Origin: Methylococcaceae bacterium
Lineage (GTDB): Bacteria; Pseudomonadota; Gammaproteobacteria; Methylococcales; Methylomonadaceae
DNA length: 64,000 bases
Direction of reading: 5' to 3'
Assembly: GCA_016715325.1 (NCBI GenBank)
Contig: JADKAL010000014.1
Location: forward strand, 744,001-808,000
Within the stretch, counting starts at the first letter, position 1, and each line of letters starts with the position of its first letter. Below, piece after piece: positions 11,429 to 33,880 of this stretch. Both the position numbers and the translations under genes were made by a program. The notes under the pieces are model-generated. The model saw only the letters and a program-made list of their open reading frames with translations, searched no databases and was not told the DNA's origin.

Positions 11429-12448
11429 TTAAACGATTCTGACTCTTATCGTTCCGTTCTCTTCGATGTCATGGTGAATCTTAATAGGTAAAAATTGTTT
11501 AATAACCTCGGCATTGGTATCGGCATGTAGGCTCCATTCAGTCGTGGTAAAAGAACCGCCGCCCGCTAACGCCATTGGCAATAACAATTGATCAGCCAAA
11601 TAGGTATCAACCGCCGCATTGCTGGTTAAGTATTTTTGCACTTTGGCAACCGCACCCTTGGCAACGACTTCCACCGCCACGCCGCGCTCGGCAAAACCGG
11701 TAAACACTTCGGTGACCTGTTTATGTTCTAAAGTAATCAGCAACACGTTCCCCGGCCCTTGGTTGCGGTTGATTTCCCGCAGCAACAATTGTTCATCACT
11801 CCAGGATAGCTTTTGCTTAACCACGGCGAGTTCGCGTTCAGCGATATGGGCAGGCAATGCCGCAAAATAACTTTCCGCATAAGCATTCACCCGTTCGCCG
11901 CGACCTTCCAAATGCAACGGCATAAGGCGAGTGCTGGGTTTAATGGTCGCCGTAATTTCACCGCCACCCGCCGGATAAAAGCCGAAACGGTTTAACTGCA
12001 AATCAACCTGGACGCCCATCCGCTTTAATAGCGGAATAAACGCCCGTTGCAAAAAATGGAACGGCGGGCACATCGTATTATGCGTACCGCCAGTAATCAC
12101 AAGTCGACTTTCCTGATCTGCCATCAACAAAGCTGGTAACACCGTTTGCAACACCAATGTACAACTGCCCGCCGTGCCGATGTTAAAGTTGTAATCACCG
12201 CCTTGCACCTTGTCTGGGTTAAAGCTTAACTCGGTTGAGCCGACTTGTGCGCCTTTGACTTCCGCGCCGGAAATCGCTGCCGCCGCATTCACGGCGGTCA
12301 AATGCTGACGCATTAATCCGGGCGTTTTACGTTTGGCGCGGATGTTTTTAATCTGGATGGCTTGTCCGGTGATAATGGCTAAGGATAACGCCGTGCGTAA
12401 AATTTGGCCGCCACCTTCGCCTTGGGAGCCGTCGATTTGGATGGTCAT
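11429..12448 (-). CDS. rtcA: RNA 3'-terminal phosphate cyclase RtcA
   Basis: A 339-residue RtcA, full length. IDGSQGEGGGQILRT at residues 5-19 and the central GGTHN and PAGGGE motifs are intact. H308 in WSLHADTNAE is the predicted catalytic histidine that is adenylated by ATP. The enzyme converts RNA 3'-phosphates to 2',3'-cyclic phosphates, the type of end used by RtcB and sensed by RtcR in enterobacteria. It is the last gene of the minus-strand rtc unit, 80 bp after the HEPN-like gene, and unlike rtcB it has no frameshift. Confidence 0.96.
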   Translation of the reverse strand: MTIQIDGSQGEGGGQILRTALSLAIITGQAIQIKNIRAKRKTPGLMRQHLTAVNAAAAISGAEVKGAQVGSTELSFNPDKVQGGDYNFNIGTAGSCTLVLQTVLPALLMADQESRLVITGGTHNTMCPPFHFLQRAFIPLLKRMGVQVDLQLNRFGFYPAGGGEITATIKPSTRLMPLHLEGRGERVNAYAESYFAALPAHIAERELAVVKQKLSWSDEQLLLREINRNQGPGNVLLITLEHKQVTEVFTGFAERGVAVEVVAKGAVAKVQKYLTSNAAVDTYLADQLLLPMALAGGGSFTTTEWSLHADTNAEVIKQFLPIKIHHDIEENGTIRVRIV

Positions 12449-13978: not shown

Positions 13979-15202
13979 TTACCCCTTCACACAAACCACC
14001 TGCTTCAAGGTATGCACGATCTCCACCAAGTCCGCTTGCGCTGCCATGACCGCATCGATGTCCTTGTACGCCATCGGGATTTCGTCGATGACATTGGCAT
14101 CTTTCCGGCATTCCACGCCTTGGGTTGCCGCTATTTGGTCGGCGACGTTGAAGCGTTTTTTCGCGGCGGTTCGGGACATGGTTCGTCCTGCGCCGTGGCT
14201 GCATGAGCAGAAAGATTCTTCCTGTCCTTTACCACGCACGATGAAGGATTTTGCACCCATCGAGCCGGGGATAATTCCCATTTGCCCGGGCCATGCCGCT
14301 ACCGCGCCTTTGCGCGTTACCAATACGTTATGACCGAAGTGATGCTCGCGCTGCACATAGTTATGGTGGCAATTCACCGCTTCCACATCAGCGGTAAACG
14401 GCTTGGGCGAAATCGCTCGAATCGCCGCAACCACATTTTGCATCATTAACTCACGATTTCGACGGGCAAAATCTTGCGCCCAGCTTACCGCTTGCACATA
14501 GTCATTGAAATGTTCCGTGCCTTCCGGAAAGTACGACAAATCACTATCCGGCAATTGGATATAGAACTTTTCCATATCCTTTTTCGCCAGTTCGATAAAG
14601 TGCGTGCCGATACGATTCCCCACTCCACGCGAACCGGAATGCAGCATAAACCACACGTTTTGACTTTCATCCAAACAAACTTCGATGAAGTGGTTGCCAG
14701 TGCCGAGTGTCCCCAAATGCTTATGGTTGTTGGTGTTCTTGAGGCATTTATGTTTGGCACAGATCGCTTCAAATTCCGGCAATAACTCCGCCCATTGTTT
14801 ATCCACATTGGCCGAGGTGTTTTCCCAAGAACCTTTATCCCGGCCACCGCGCGTACGCGACAAGCCATGCGGCACGCGCGTTCAATCGCTGTTCGCCAGC
14901 CGTGCAGGTTATCCGGCAAATCACTAGCAGTTAAGCTGGTACGCGCCGCCATCATCCCGCAACCGATGTCCACGCCGACCGCCGCCGGAATAATCGCACC
15001 TAAAGTTGGTATTACGCTACCGATGGTTGAACCCTTACCCAAATGCACGTCCGGCATCACCGCGACATGCTTAAAGATAAACGGCAATTCCGCGATGTTC
15101 CGCAATTGCTTTTGGCTTGTCTTCCACCGGCACGCCGTGCGTCCATAGTTTGATCGGCTTGCCGTTTCCGGCTTGCATGACGGTAAAGTTTTCGGGTTGC
15201 AT
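13979..15202 (-). pseudogene. rtcB: RNA ligase RtcB, two single-base frameshifts
   Basis: RtcB seals 2',3'-cyclic-phosphate or 3'-phosphate RNA ends to 5'-OH ends using GTP and Mn2+. The protein can be followed from MQPENFTVMQAG (ATG at 15202, preceded by AGGAG) through FKHVAVMPDVHLGKGSTIGS, GVDIGCGM, GTLGTGNHF, NCHHNYVQ, CSCSHGAGR and the terminal VVCVKG, giving about 407 residues, the normal length. Two indels break it. One is an extra A in an A4 run near 15110-15113. The other is a missing G near 14872-14876, where ERAV-PHGL should read through. Metal and guanylylation residues (C, H, H and the SHGAGR His) are all present. Whether it is a true pseudogene or a sequence-error casualty cannot be decided here. 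Confidence 0.9.
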
Positions 15203-15220: not shown

Positions 15221-15655
15221 TTATAACTGCATTATTAATTGCTGGTTAGCGATTATTTCCTGCGGCAATTTGTTATTGCTAAGTTGCCGTTTTCTCAATA
15301 ATCCTTCTAAATGTATTTTTCTAGCCAGCGCTTTCCGTTCACGTTCTTTTATTCGGCAGGGCCGACATAAAACCGCGATTGTCCAGATATCACCCTTTGC
15401 CAGTTCATACCACCAATGCTGTTGCTGGGCTGTCCAGATTTGCGGCGTTCCACAATGTTTACAAGTAAAAGGCATGTCAACATAAAACCCGCGCTTAACA
15501 AATTCCGGTATCCCATAACTGTTGTTAGGACTTAAACTGGCCGGATTTACGGGTACACTTCCATGTGGCATATCATATTGGCTGGCTAGCGATACGCGCT
15601 TAAGATATTTACTGTTAGCCGAGTTTGTTAACCGTATCTCTTTTCGCCGCAACAT
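15221..15655 (-). CDS. Zinc-ribbon protein in the rtc unit
   Basis: 144 residues. Residues about 62-102 contain FTCKHCGTPQIWTAQQQHWW followed later by VLCRPCRIKE, a CxxC...CxxC zinc ribbon of the kind that usually reads W-T-A-x-Q-Q-x-W-W-Y. The flanks are basic and helical and may bind RNA. The ATG overlaps a TAA stop of an upstream reading frame (TAATG), showing translational coupling to a gene that is now only a remnant. It ends 18 nt before rtcB. The function is unknown; the position suggests an accessory RNA-binding role in repair. Confidence 0.7.
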   Translation of the reverse strand: MLRRKEIRLTNSANSKYLKRVSLASQYDMPHGSVPVNPASLSPNNSYGIPEFVKRGFYVDMPFTCKHCGTPQIWTAQQQHWWYELAKGDIWTIAVLCRPCRIKERERKALARKIHLEGLLRKRQLSNNKLPQEIIANQQLIMQL

Positions 15656-15775: not shown

Positions 15776-16915
15776 TTATTGCTTAATGCTGATCAAACCG
15801 TTCAACACCTGATCCAGGCCGCCGAATACGGAAATCTTGTCAATCCGTTCGGCGACACGTTCCAGGGTTTCCAGTTCTTTCAACCGTAGCGCCGTGGCGT
15901 TTTCTTCCATGACTTTGGCGGTGTTCAGCAAGGACCGGGTTGCGTTGGTTTCTTCCCGGCGCTTGATGATATTGGCTTCAGCCGCTTTTTGCGCTTCCAC
16001 CACTTGTGCCAGGATAGTTTTCATTTCGCCTGGCAGGATGATGTCGCGCAGGCCGACGCTGGTTACGTCGATGCCAAAGCTCGCCAGCTTGCCTTGTACG
16101 GCATCCAGCAACAGCTTATTCAGCGACTGCTTGTTTTCCAGCAAGTTATTCAGCGTGCGTTCGCCAATGGCTTCACGTAGGGCGAACTGTAATTCGCGGT
16201 ATAAATGCTCTGCTGGCTTGTTCAGCTTGGCAAAGGCCAATAACACATCGCTAAATTGCCAGGTCGCAATCAGGCTGATCCGCAAGGCCACCTTGTCTTT
16301 GGTCAGGATTTCCTGGCCGCTGACTTCCTGGTTTTGCAAGCGCATATCAACGGTTTCCACTGTAATGTCACGGTTAAAGCCCCAGAATACTTCTGTTGCT
16401 GCGGTCATCAAACGCAACAACTTTGCCGTCGATTTTCAACACGCCGACATGGTAAGCTGGAATCATAACCGCCAATAAACCTTCAGAACCCTTCAACTCG
16501 CGGCCTTTCAGCCAGGATTGCTTGATACGCTGGGTCAATTGCTTATCTACTTCGTAACCTGAGATATATCGGCCTTTTCTAATGCAAAATCGATATCGCC
16601 TTTCCAATAAGCGCGACGGGTGCCTGGGGCTAAAATTTCAACCAGCTTATTATTGGCGTACAACAAGCCAGCTTCCTGGTCGCTTAATTCAAAAACGTGC
16701 AGGTAACGACTCACCAGCGCGGCTTCGTTCTTCTGCAAATAATTCAGCAAGGTTTCGTCATTGAATTCGCTGTCGGCAGCAATTATCGTCACAGTTTGCC
16801 GTTTAAACGGGTTCAACGACAAACGATGTTCGCCGGATTCCAAAACACGGACAAAATCGCCACGCTGCATCAATAAGCCGCGTTCGTTAAGCTTGATAAA
16901 TACTGTTTTAAACAT
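15776..16915 (-). pseudogene. Slipin (SPFH/stomatin family), two frameshifts
   Basis: A slipin of about 380 residues can be followed from MFKTVFIKLNERGLL (ATG 16915, AAGGAAAG upstream) through GYEVDKQLTQRIKQSWLKGR, VFWGFNRDITVETVDMRLQN and GFNR/SPFH core residues to the C-terminal coiled coil ISVFGGLDQVLNGLIS. It has no obvious membrane anchor, like other slipins encoded beside rtcBA. One base is missing near 16559-16565, before SGYEVDKQ. One extra T lies in a run near 16410-16412, where KVVALMTAATEVFWGFNR would read through. Slipins scaffold membrane or protein assemblies; linkage to RtcB operons is a known recurrent context, but the molecular role is not known. Confidence 0.8.
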
Positions 16916-17113
16916 AATCTTTCCTTAAGTTATATTGAGGCTGGTCGGATATCCCAAACTGCGTCCGTGTTCTGGCAAACCAGGGAGTCGCAACGCTAGT
17001 GAATTTCAGGGGTAAGGGGCTTGGTTGCAATTGCATCCAATCCTTTAATCGCTGTTTTCACTGAACCTGTTGCGACTTGCCTAACTTGCGATCCTACTTT
17101 TGCGGTTAAGGAC

Positions 17114-17136
17114 AGTGGACACTTGCGTGTTCCACA
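17114..17136 (-). other. Hairpin with GNRA tetraloop in the rtc leader
   Basis: On the minus strand GTGGA-A-CAC-GCAA-GTG-TCCAC forms a 5+3 bp stem with one bulged A and a GCAA tetraloop. It lies downstream of the tRNA-like modules and 200 nt before the slipin start, in a 260-nt untranslated stretch with no ORF. Confidence 0.5.
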
Positions 17137-17181
17137 ACCAGCCGTACTGCATTATTTGTTTATCGGTTTTATAGACCGAAA

Positions 17182-17251
17182 TTTGGAGCAGGAGTCGAAC
17201 CCGCGACAAATGGATTATCAGTCCATCGCTCTACCCACTGAGCTATCCAAT
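17182..17251 (-). ncRNA. tRNA-Ile(GAU)-like RNA module
   Basis: On the minus strand this folds as a cloverleaf by hand. The D-arm is GCTC-AGTGGGTA-GAGC. The anticodon arm is ATGGA-CTGATAA-TCCAT, with anticodon GAT. A five-base variable region follows, then the T-arm GCGGG-TTCGACT-CCTGC. Only five acceptor pairs form (TTGGA/TCCAA), and no encoded CCA follows, so it is a tRNA mimic or a decayed tRNA-Ile rather than a normal gene. It starts at the base after the 3' end of the second module and reads in the direction of slipin-rtcB-rtcA. Rtc loci of other bacteria encode tRNA-mimicking Y RNAs, which makes a functional RNA plausible. Confidence 0.55.
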
Positions 17252-17361
17252 GGTGGATGCGGTGGAATCGAACCAACCTCTGTCACCAGACACACCCGTT
17301 TGCCATAACTGAAACTTTGGCGGCATACGGCACAACAACCTTATCAGGGCTTTACCGCACC
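17251..17361 (-). ncRNA. Second tRNA-like/Y-RNA-like module
   Basis: A 111-nt structured RNA on the minus strand. A 7-bp closing stem pairs GGTGCGG with CCGCATC. Inside are a short arm AGCC-CTGATAA-GGTT, whose loop is again the tRNA-Ile anticodon loop; an 8-bp arm CCGT-A-TGCC / GGCA-A-ACGG (17296-17304 with 17322-17330); a TGTC-TGGT-GACA hairpin; and a T-arm with loop TTCGATT. The 3' end reads CACCA and abuts the next module. It has no ordinary D-arm. It lies about 50 nt downstream of the predicted start of the sigma54 promoter. Folding was done by eye only. Confidence 0.5.
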
Positions 17362-17419: not shown

Positions 17420-17436
17420 AGCGATAACTATGCCAA
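17420..17436 (-). promoter_or_regulatory. Sigma54 promoter of the rtc unit
   Basis: The minus strand reads TTGGCATAGTTATCGCT. The GG (17433-17434) and GC (17421-17422) are separated by exactly 10 nt, as in the -24/-12 consensus TGGCAC-N5-TTGC. It faces the tRNA-like modules and slipin-rtcB, and the divergent gene encodes RtcR, a sigma54 activator. Transcription would begin near 17409. Confidence 0.75.
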
Positions 17437-17577: not shown

Positions 17578-19160
17578 ATGAAGAAAAAAGTAGTCATCGG
17601 CTTTATCGGTTCTCAACTGGATTCTGGTGTCGGGTCGGGACGTTGGGAAAAATGGCGGCCTACCGTATCGTTGACCCAACATGAAGATTTGGTCATCGAC
17701 CGTTTTGTCTTGTTTTACGACCGAAAATATCAGTCCTTACTTCAATTACTCACTGAAGACATCGCGTCGGTGTCCCCTGAAACTGAAGTGTTGCCGGTGG
17801 AAATGACGATTGCCGATCCTTGGGATTTCGGCCAGGTTTATGGCGCATTGTTCGATTTCTCCACGCACTATCCCTTCGATACTGAACGCGAAGACTACTG
17901 GATACACATCACCACCGGCACGCATGTCGCCCAGATTTGCTTGTTTTTGATGGTCGAAGCGCGCTACTTTCCCGGCATGTTGTTGCAAACCTCCCCCACC
18001 ACGCAGGCAAAAAAGCGGCTTGGTCGGCAGTTATGCCTTGATTGACCTGGACTTAAGTCATTACGACGCGATAGCCAAACGCTACGCTAAGGCGGAAGCC
18101 GATGCTATCGCCTTGTTGAAGTCCGGCATTGAGACACGCAATGCTGCCTTCAACCGAATGATCAGCGAAATCGAACATGTCGCCGTGCGCTCGAAAGCAC
18201 CGATGTTGTTGATGGGTCAAACTGGGGCGGGCAAGTCCTTTCTCGCCAAGCGTGTTTTTGAACTTAAAAAAGCCCGCCACCAAATCTCAGGTAGCTTTGT
18301 AGAAATCAATTGCGCAACGTTACGCGGCGATGGCGCAGCCTCGGCTTTGTTCGGCCATGTCAAGGGCGCATTCACTGGGGCACAACAAGACCGGGGCGGG
18401 TTGCTCAGGAGTGCGGATAAGGGTTTGTTGTTCTTGGATGAAATTGGTGAACTCGGCGCGGACGAACAAGCGATGCTGCTGAAAGCCATCGAAGAAAAAT
18501 TTCTTTCCGGTCGGCGGCGATAAACTGGTGAAGAGCGATTTCCAGTTAATTGCCGGAACCCACCGTGATTTAAGGCAAGATGTGGCTGCGGGACGATTCC
18601 GCGAAGATTTATTCGCCCGTATCAATTTGTGGACTTATGAGTTGCCGTCACTGGCACAGCGTCCGGAAGACATCGAGCCGAATATCGATTACCTGCTGGC
18701 GCAACAATCCGCCGAAATAGGCTGTAAGGTTAGTTTCAATAAAGAAGCGAGGCGTAAATATCTTCAATTTGCGACATCGCAGGCGGCTTTATGGCAGGGT
18801 AATTTTCGCGATCTCGGCGCTTCTATTTTGCGGCTGTCAACTTTGGCTGAAGGCGGGCGGATTACCGATGATCTGGTCGAGTATGAGGTTCAACGCTTGA
18901 GTAAACTTTGGGGGCAGGCGCGCGAAACTGAGTTCGCCGGATTAACGGAAATACTTGGCCTGGAGCAATTGGCGGAACTGGATTTATTCGACCGCTTGCA
19001 ATTACAAGCGGTGCTGAGTGTTTGCCGCGAATGTAAAAATCTTTCAGAGGCGGGTAGGAAATTATTCGCTGTTTCCAGAACTCAACGCGGTAGTACGAAT
19101 GATGCCGACCGCCTTAGGAAATATTTGGCACGATTTAATTTGGATTGGTCGAATCTGTAA
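17578..19160 (+). pseudogene. rtcR: Sigma54 activator RtcR (CARF-AAA+-HTH), two frameshifts
   Basis: RtcR activates rtcBA from a sigma54 promoter; in enterobacteria its N-terminal CARF domain senses RNA ends with cyclic phosphate. Here the N-terminal domain (MKKKVVIGFIGSQLDSG... to about residue 175) and the AAA+ domain (GQTGAGKS Walker A, GAFTGA loop for sigma54, LLFLDEIGEL Walker B) are present. So is the C-terminal Fis-like HTH region (NDADRLRKYLARFNL). Two indels split it into three frames: an extra A in an A6 run at 18009-18014 (TQAKSGLVGSYALID expected), and two missing bases near 18495-18502 (EEKRFFPVGGD expected). The AAA+ ATP site and GAFTGA are unchanged. Confidence 0.92.
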
Positions 19161-32491: not shown

Positions 32492-32643
32492 CGTTTTATT
32501 CCAAATTAGTGTATCAATAGAGTTTTTCTTTGGATTGCCGGGCGTTGTCAGGCAATTCAGTCTTCGAGTCATTGCTTGAATATTTCTTTGTCTTTTTTAA
32601 GGAAAGTACTTGTAAGAACTCCATTCTGCAGAAGGGGAAATCA

Positions 32644-33880
32644 ATGACGGAACATACGGTCCAGAACCAATCTTTGGTTAATCGACGTATGCTGATTTGC
32701 ATATTCACCGGCTTTAGTTCCGGTTTGCCTCTCTATATCCTTATTAGCTTAGTGCCTGCTTGGTTGCGTTCGGTAGGTGTAGACCTTAAGTCGATCGGTT
32801 TATTTGCTTTAATTCAATTGCCGTTTACGTGGAAGTTTATTTGGGCGCCCATTTTTGACCGCTATATTCCCCCGTTAGGTCGTCGTCGCGGTTGGTTGCT
32901 GATTACGCAAATTTTTTTATTGGTGATTTTGCCGTTATTCGGCTATTTGAGTCCGCAATTCAATCTCTGGAATGTGGCTTATCTATCGATAATAGTGGCT
33001 TTTTTCAGCGCCTCGCAAGACGTCGTTTTGGATGCCTACCGTCGCGAATTATTGTTGGACTATGAGTTAGGGCTTGGTAATGCGATTCATGTCAATGCCT
33101 ATAAGATTGCCGGTTTAGTGCCTGGATCGCTTTCATTAATTTTAGCCGACCATTTGCCCTGGAATAGCGTTTTCTTTATCACTGCGCTGTTCATGATGCC
33201 TGGTCTACTGACAACGCTATTAATAACAGAACCGCAGCTGAATGGCGCGCCCAAAACGTTAAGAGCGGCCGTAATAGAGCCTTTCGAGGAGTTCCGAAGC
33301 CGCGGCTTAAAATCAGGATTATTGATTTTAGCGTTTATTTTTTTACAAACTGGGCGACAGTATGGCTACCGCGTTGGCAACCCCTTTTTATCTCGACATG
33401 GGATTTAGCAAAACCGAGATTGGATTGATTGCAAAAAATGCAGGGCTTTGGCCAAGTGTAATCGGTGGGTTGTTGGGCGGGGTATGGATGATTCGGTTAG
33501 GCATTAATCGAGCGCTATGGCTTTTCGGGGTAGTGCAAATGGTAGCTATATTAGGCTTTGCGTGGCTTGCTACGGTTGGTCATAATCCTTTATGGCTGGC
33601 GATAGTGATCGGCGTTGAAGCCTTGGGTGTGGGGTTGGGGACATCGGCATTCGTCGCGTTTATTGCGCGAACGACTCATCCGCTCTATACGGCAACGCAA
33701 TTTGCATTATTTACCAGTCTAGCCGCAGTACCGCGGACATTTGCTAACGCTGCAACGGGTTATCTAGTTGAAAGTTTGGGATGGACAACATTTTTTTTAG
33801 TATGCTTTTTTATGGCGATACCCGGAATGGTTTTGCTGATTAAGGTAGCGCCATGGTACCAGAAAGAAAATGAGATTTAG
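32644..33880 (+). pseudogene. AmpG-type MFS permease, one frameshift
   Basis: An MFS transporter of about 412 residues in two frames. The first part (MTEHTVQNQ..., with GRRRGWLLITQIFL and ASQDVVLDAYRREL) and the second (ATALATPFYLDMGFSKTEIG...) join if one T is added to the T7 run at 33338-33344. The joint then reads FIFFYKLGDSMATALATPF, which restores the AmpG KLGD-x-M motif. AmpG imports anhydro-muropeptides for peptidoglycan recycling. The start at 32644 follows an AGGGGAAA site. All else looks conserved, so sequence error or homopolymer phase variation is likelier than old decay. Confidence 0.85.

Follow-up and report, generated by a model that had tools for sequence, protein, structure and literature searches.

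A conserved, usually tandem tRNA-like RNA encoded upstream of slipin genes in RNA-repair loci

Operons for RNA repair (rtc operons) respond to broken tRNAs, and those of the Ro60 type carry tRNA-like Y RNAs. The 64,000-nucleotide stretch of DNA analysed here (the window) contains an rtc locus in which the sequence between rtcR and a gene for a slipin, a protein of the SPFH/Band 7 type from a membrane-scaffold family, resembles tRNA. An initial annotation took this sequence for tandem RNAs that head an RNA-repair operon lacking a visible Ro60 gene; Ro60 was indeed not found in the window, and the arrangement is conserved far outside the source genome. The locus raises the questions of whether such RNAs are spare tRNAs or tRNA mimics, and which gene of the operon they accompany.

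The RNA element is flanked by the divergent rtcR and the slipin gene, which is followed by rtcB and rtcA (Table 1). With a divergent rtcR, a sigma54-like site, rtcB and rtcA (rtcR and rtcB being frame-broken), the locus has the genes of an RtcR/sigma54-type rtc operon, and control by RtcR is putative. The site TGGCATAGTTATCGC is called sigma54-like by comparison with the -24/-12 consensus, and the close relative L172 (genome G124) carries a similar site, TGGCACAGTTATCGC, at the same position. The rtcR-slipin stretch of L172 is 82% identical to that of the window, and its frames are open (rtcR, 530 amino acids; slipin, 381; rtcB, 413); the window slipin is 81% identical to this open slipin. Because rtcR, slipin and rtcB are all frame-broken in the window, this copy of the operon may be decaying, or the sequence may be faulty. 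A gene for an MFS transporter at positions 32530-33880 also seems to be divided between two overlapping frames, which makes faulty sequence possible besides decay. Between slipin and rtcB, at positions 15221-15655, lies a gene for a zf_Tbcl (treble clef) protein, and zf_Tbcl-like genes are found again in several rtc loci.

Table 1. Positions of the RNA element and its neighbouring genes in the window
Feature	Position	Strand	Basis and remarks
sigma54-type -24/-12 promoter-like site	17421..17435	-	sequence (TGGCATAGTTATCGC)
P3 hairpin of leader RNA	17325..17360	-	outer stem by parser; comparison with L172
Module A, stunted tRNA-like domain, ends ACCA	17251..17297	-	sequence and acceptor test
Module A acceptor GGGTG/CATCC	17297-17293 / 17259-17255	-	sequence
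Module A T-arm; ACCA	17277-17261; 17254-17251	-	sequence
Module B, tRNA-like cloverleaf	17183..17250	-	ARAGORN, Rfam tRNA, covariation in alignment A4
Module B acceptor TTGGA/TCCAA			5 bp; no encoded CCA
Module B D-arm; T-arm	17243-17228; 17204-17188	-	
Module B anticodon arm; loop CTGATAA	17226-17210; 17221-17215	-	
Remaining leader, module B to slipin	16916..17182	-	conserved patches; 77% identical to L172
slipin (SPFH/Band 7)	15776..16915	-	Pfam Band_7; frame broken in window
rtcB	13979..15166	-	Pfam RtcB; tblastn pieces in different frames; frame broken
rtcA (RNA 3'-terminal phosphate cyclase)	11429..12448	-	Pfam RTC; frame open
rtcR, divergent	17578..19160	+	three frames, broken; relatives named RtcR

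The element is probably best delimited from a start at about 17410 to 17183, with more conserved patches downstream of module B. ARAGORN calls a single tRNA-Ile(gat) at 17252-17180 on the minus strand of the window. A check against tRNA and Y-RNA models, which the initial annotation had proposed, places the Rfam tRNA family (RF00005) at 17250-17183 with 58 bits, the sole gathering-level match in the 64 kb, whereas the Y-RNA family YrlA stays below its gathering score. None of the Rfam families fits the whole element.

Two abutting tRNA-like modules had been drawn on the minus strand, and two are present, the second being a cloverleaf with the D-arm, anticodon arm and T-arm attributed to it. 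The canonical T-loops, TTCGATT (17272-17266) and TTCGACT (17199-17193), are likewise where they were described, and the CACCA end of the first module lies within CCACCA at 17256-17251. The fold proposed for the first module is not supported. Its 7-bp closing stem, GTGCGGT/ACCGCAT, is paired in just 37% of cells over 36 loci, and the 3' strand of this stem reads AATACAT in L172; the GTGCGGT...GTAT stretch forms a hairpin of its own, P3. Both CTGATAA 7-mers exist, at 17347-17341 and 17221-17215, but the former lies in the tip of P3, outside any anticodon arm, and is present in L172 and absent from the related leader L066.

Between the window and L172, P3 is 97% identical and the leader before module A 96-97%, compared with 74.5% for module A and 82% for module B. 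In the nearest relative the anticodon stem of module B changes from ATGGA/TCCAT to GTGAA/TTCAC with pairing kept. Single-sequence folding energies of two stretches were no better than those of shuffled sequences (z 0.34 and -0.18), so support for the structures is comparative.

Relatives were gathered by way of both flanking genes. The best 120 matches of an RtcR search include names from Methylococcales and betaproteobacteria. Loci anchored on rtcR were taken from genome contigs (the best 80 of at least 583 confirmed), and slipin was seen by tblastn typing in 19 of these 80. A profile built on six leaders (those of the window, L020, L050, L066, L071 and L074) matches 15 of the best 80 loci and the window over most of its length, and several others partly. 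The distance from rtcR to the slipin match is approximately 610-760 nucleotides in slipin-type loci; that from rtcR to the Ro60 match is approximately 170-450 nucleotides in Ro60-type loci. Model R1 was set aside as a finder: it matched 151 of 151 genomes, mostly at apparent ordinary tRNA pairs that were not inspected singly. Because R1 is unspecific, further loci were gathered through the slipin protein. Whole-genome protein searches found this slipin in 8 of 151 genomes from the order to which G001 (the genome with the Methylomonas koyamae locus) belongs, in 14 of 274 genomes of its class, and in 32 of 399 and 17 of 200 genomes in overlapping sets from the orders of G019 and G021.

A parser for module B recognises it ahead of 45 of 51 slipin genes; in the same loci it found the module in none of 51 antisense strands, none of 51 slipin bodies and 1 of 51 downstream regions. 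In 35 of 55 loci the coding strand has a pair of T-loops, spaced 55-90 nucleotides apart, within the 600 nucleotides that precede slipin; such a pair occurs in 0 of 55 on the antisense strand and in 1 of 55 in the slipin body or downstream. The T-loop count keeps all 55 slipin loci; four of them (L138, L146, L148 and L151), in which the slipin match starts inside the gene, are left out of the module B, P3 and acceptor counts. The list used for the module B parser and for tRNA densities includes L059, where tblastn shows no slipin; the contig of L072 ends short of where slipin would lie. In the slipin-anchored loci L113, L136, L144, L154, L158 and L165 (6 of 51), the parser finds no module B. 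Among rtcR-anchored slipin loci, 14 of 19 are positive. The parser finds no module B in the other five, of which L017, L021, L041 and L052 match R1 weakly (24-27 bits) at the place of module B and L011 contains a piece resembling module A.

The rtcR-proximal region of 59 rtcR-anchored loci in which slipin was not seen, all from the best 80 of at least 583, yielded neither module B (0 of 59) nor an R1 match in the gap. Within this set the upstream sequence of L002 and L003 is short, and L002, L036 and L073 have no recognised operon gene. Many Ro60-type loci show weak R1 matches roughly at the gap between rsr and rtcB, which is where the Ro60-type locus L001 has YrlA. In 20 larger slipin loci (up to 16 kb, several of them cut by contig ends) rtcR was seen in 6, rtcB in 15 and module B in 19 (the exception is L183); rtcR or rtcB may sit outside the fetched loci. 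Five genomes without rtcB in the locus have an RtcB match elsewhere, that in G257 being just 41% identical, and RtcB was matched in 15 of the 16 genomes searched overall. Protein searches for Ro60 found it in none of 19 other genomes and in the control G001; the corresponding family search (PF05731, TROVE) missed this control. These 19 comprise 16 slipin-bearing genomes, in all of which Ro60 was absent from the matches, together with that of L072 and those of L058 and L059, the latter two without slipin.

Compared in this way, the RNA appears to track slipin and not RtcR. The initial annotation had suggested that the RNAs could be decoys, repair substrates or self-made ligands of RtcR that give the operon a feedback loop. 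As a general function the role of RtcR ligand was set aside, given that rtcR was seen in 6 and module B in 19 of the 20 larger loci and that module B was found in none of the 59 rtcR-proximal regions just described.

The examination of orthologous gaps for compensatory changes that had also been proposed there was carried out, and the element passed it. In an alignment (A4, made with MAFFT) of the 25 module B copies that have preferred 7-nucleotide loops, 95.2% of cells are paired, compared with 71.5% after shuffling, and there are 119 compensatory cells, compared with 36.8 (standard deviation 4.5). Fourteen of 20 pairs show changes on both sides, and the covariation score is 0.645, against 0.173 for shuffled and 0.069-0.141 for slid alignments. 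The anticodon helix of A4 is biased in that the row-picking parser requires pairing there. The acceptor helix, which was not used in picking rows, is 86.7% paired, with both-side changes in six of six pairs. With shuffled versions of the stretch itself as reference, the arms of module B reach p<=0.05 in 27 of 56 copies. For the module A acceptor, 25 of the 47 loci tested are at p<=0.05, with a combined p of about 4e-18 that overstates the case because the rows are related; taken alone, neither the window (p 0.30) nor its close relative L111 (p 0.60) gives a significant acceptor. The outer stem of P3 is found in 36 of 66 loci, with 256 of 288 cells paired compared with 204 after shuffling, pair counts that are biased because the parser demands six of eight pairs.

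The comparison thus shows, at the level of sequence, a conserved and covarying tRNA-like RNA that is usually tandem and tied to slipin. That the modules are decayed tRNA genes without function might be imagined from the frame-broken operon genes of the window, but is highly improbable in view of compensatory changes both across and within lineages and of the strong linkage to slipin. The module order varies in places: in L135, L153, L155, L156 and L157 it is seemingly swapped, with a T-arm hairpin after the cloverleaf, and L164 and L179 have three consecutive tRNA-like modules upstream of slipin.

A functional tRNA is expected to have a 7-bp acceptor stem followed by CCA. In the window, module B scores as a tRNA and has a 7-nucleotide anticodon loop with U33, but its acceptor has 5 bp and no CCA is encoded, and the 5-bp acceptor of module A is followed by ACCA. 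Acceptors of 3-5 bp are found for module B in many loci and of 7 bp in a few (L117 and L141), whereas CCA is inconstant after module A, where CCU, CCC and GAU also occur. Loops differ between the modules as well. Fifteen upstream modules were parsed; in the 12 loci where module A has a full arm and adjoins module B (L132, L135 and L164 were omitted as not adjacent), its preferred loop has 3-6 nucleotides in 11 and one is unparsed. When shorter stems are allowed, a 7-nucleotide loop is possible in six of these 12, with U33 in L163 only. For module B the preferred loop, that on the longest stem, has 7 nucleotides in 25 of 56 copies. Thirty-eight of the 56 can form a 7-nucleotide loop on at least four pairs (27 of them with U33) and 18 cannot; many of the latter carry GCAA or GAAA tetraloops. 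The 25 copies with preferred 7-nucleotide loops have U33 in 21, U36 in 20, A37 in 18 and A38 in 23, and this U36/A37/A38 pattern presumably resembles that of tRNAs for ANN codons and of t6A sites.

Because module A is mostly without a usable anticodon loop and 18 copies of module B cannot form a 7-nucleotide one, mimics fit these data better than spare tRNAs. The canonical loops available to 38 copies of module B, together with some 7-bp acceptors, nevertheless make tRNA function possible in places, and the mimic reading suits module A well and module B less uniformly.

Some related loci do contain tRNA genes in number. In L166, rtcB and slipin are surrounded by approximately 18 tRNA genes of ordinary appearance and many kinds, and L167, L168, L169, L171 and L175 have smaller arrays around one or both of these genes; rtcR was not seen in any of these six. 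At least three ARAGORN tRNA calls lie outside the 620 nucleotides before slipin in 7 of 55 slipin loci. The density of calls is 2.4 per 10 kb in slipin loci without these 620 nucleotides and 4.4 when the modules are counted, whereas for the 59 rtcR loci that are not on the slipin list it is 0.38 per 10 kb. The arrays suggest sets of spare tRNAs next to RNA-repair genes. Arrays also adjoin rtcR in two Ro60-type rtc loci, with approximately 20 tRNA genes in L037 (10233-12673) and 8 in L042 (10291-11423 and on).

Module B might accordingly be viewed as a functional spare tRNA that replaces broken ones and is the remainder of such an array, as its ARAGORN and Rfam matches and its frequently possible 7-nucleotide loop would permit. 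We consider this improbable, since the short acceptors, the lack of CCA in many copies and the loops described above argue against it for both modules, and since the module pair stands right before slipin whether or not a locus has an array.

The loops are also pertinent to a role in which the RNA would serve anticodon nucleases, RtcA or RtcB as decoy or substrate and a cleaved 5' half of module B could feed RtcR. The U33, U36 and A38 frequencies given above would be appropriate to such a target. RtcR is reported to bind 5' halves of tRNAs with a cyclic-phosphate end, and the same authors suggest that YrlA might inhibit the nuclease competitively (PMC7790460); RtcAB are reported to bind the CARF domain of RtcR (PMC9650030). 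Against this stand the 18 copies of module B that cannot make the loop and the 14 of 20 larger slipin loci in which rtcR was not seen, and we regard the decoy role as unlikely to be the principal one.

The closeness of the modules to slipin may instead mean a role in cis. As part of the slipin/rtc mRNA they might set the stability or translation of slipin, either as entry sites for RNase P, RNase Z or another nuclease or as a sensor of the load of tRNA processing or repair. They lie approximately 220-550 nucleotides before slipin on the coding strand, conserved patches continue from module B to slipin, and module A often has a tRNA-like 3' end, which in the window is ACCA. However, module B of the window ends without CCA, its acceptor is short in many loci, and the 3' end of module A is inconstant, so that a cis-acting leader is conceivable but rather doubtful.

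The likeliest role, although we hold it tentatively, is that of a tRNA mimic that acts in trans, in the manner of a Y RNA, and works with slipin in the response to damaged tRNA. The RNA is widespread and consists of one or usually two tRNA-like modules, often preceded by the P3 hairpin; in rtc loci of gamma- and betaproteobacteria its sequence immediately precedes the gene for one particular slipin. In RtcR-type loci it would be the leader of a sigma54-driven operon and, by analogy with the published mechanism of Salmonella RtcR, would be produced once RtcR has been activated by broken tRNAs. The elbow of D-arm and T-arm is kept while the acceptor and anticodon arms vary, which suggests that a tRNA surface is displayed without decoding. 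We favour action in trans with slipin because the RNA follows slipin even where rtcR or rtcB is not seen. By analogy, the RNA and slipin may hold the place that the Y RNA and Ro60 have in other rtc operons, and the RNA may act as a tether, counter or decoy for anticodon nucleases or for enzymes that handle tRNA. Transcription as a single leader, its processing, action in trans with slipin, and a decoy or repair role are all inferred. The RNA looks like an unnamed RNA component of the cellular response to broken tRNAs, and an earlier description of a slipin-linked tRNA-like RNA was not found in the open-access literature.

Several known systems resemble parts of this arrangement. Like tRNA-Ile(GAU) and other tRNA genes (RF00005), module B is a cloverleaf with the D- and T-loops of tRNA, but it differs from them in the acceptor and 3' end noted for the window, and in some relatives tetraloop hairpins replace the anticodon arm. 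Module A, with an acceptor, a T-arm and a reduced D region, recalls the tRNA-like domain of tmRNA; the tmRNA family itself (RF00023) was rejected, with 14.9 bits against a gathering score of 47.

In Anabaena, TrcR represses an operon of 26 tRNAs (trn), rtcB and a slipin gene, all of which rise when TrcR is deleted, and trn is activated by translational stress (PMC10272220). Unlike the rtc-slipin loci, these are separate loci under a repressor, with no RtcR. PaFlo8 of Pseudomonas aeruginosa is encoded by an SPFH gene among rtcA, rtcB and rtcR, and strains with one or several paFlo genes deleted showed no pronounced phenotype (PMC13086221). An SPFH gene in an rtc locus is common to both, and the description of PaFlo8, as far as consulted, mentions no RNA.

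The predicted model of the rtc slipin has no evident membrane helix. Fold searches with it (Foldseek, VIA) list stomatins first and major vault protein further down, and its N-terminal domain alone gives weak rows and no Foldseek match at E<=0.001; families missing from these lists are uninformative. The vault particle consists of major vault protein, TEP1 and vault RNA, and the likeness of the slipin model to it is a lead only. One can picture the rtc slipin as an SPFH shell, perhaps vault-like, that is loaded with the tandem mimic and brings RtcB and RtcA together with broken tRNAs so that these are repaired, a counterpart of Ro60 and Y RNA; in some loci spare tRNA genes would be added. This picture is a speculative one that we would not expect to hold in full. 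The slipin of rtc loci nonetheless gains a testable candidate RNA partner, and the tRNA arrays at some loci add the idea that cells either repair or replace.

The closest parallel is YrlA, the bacterial Y RNA (RF02553), which as an identity for the element was rejected. In the scan at E<=1 that also listed tmRNA, the window scores 19.8 bits, far below the gathering score of 69, and no gathering-level match was found in L066, L071, L074, L020, L008, L069, L017 or L058, while the Ro60-type L001 scores 73.6 bits. Y RNAs such as YrlA bind Ro60 or PNPase through their terminal stem. Like YrlA of rsr-yrlBA-rtcBA operons, the slipin-linked RNA mimics tRNA and is encoded in an RNA-repair operon, and the weak RF02553 alignment, which spans the junction of modules A and B, finds a T-arm followed by a D-arm in both. 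Unlike YrlA, which in L001 lies between rsr and rtcB, it stands at the head of the operon before slipin, has successive modules and a P3 hairpin, and is not accompanied by any Ro60 found in the window or the slipin-bearing genomes searched. A second, structurally different tRNA mimic where Ro60 is undetected suggests that tRNA-shaped RNA is a recurrent component of bacterial RNA repair.
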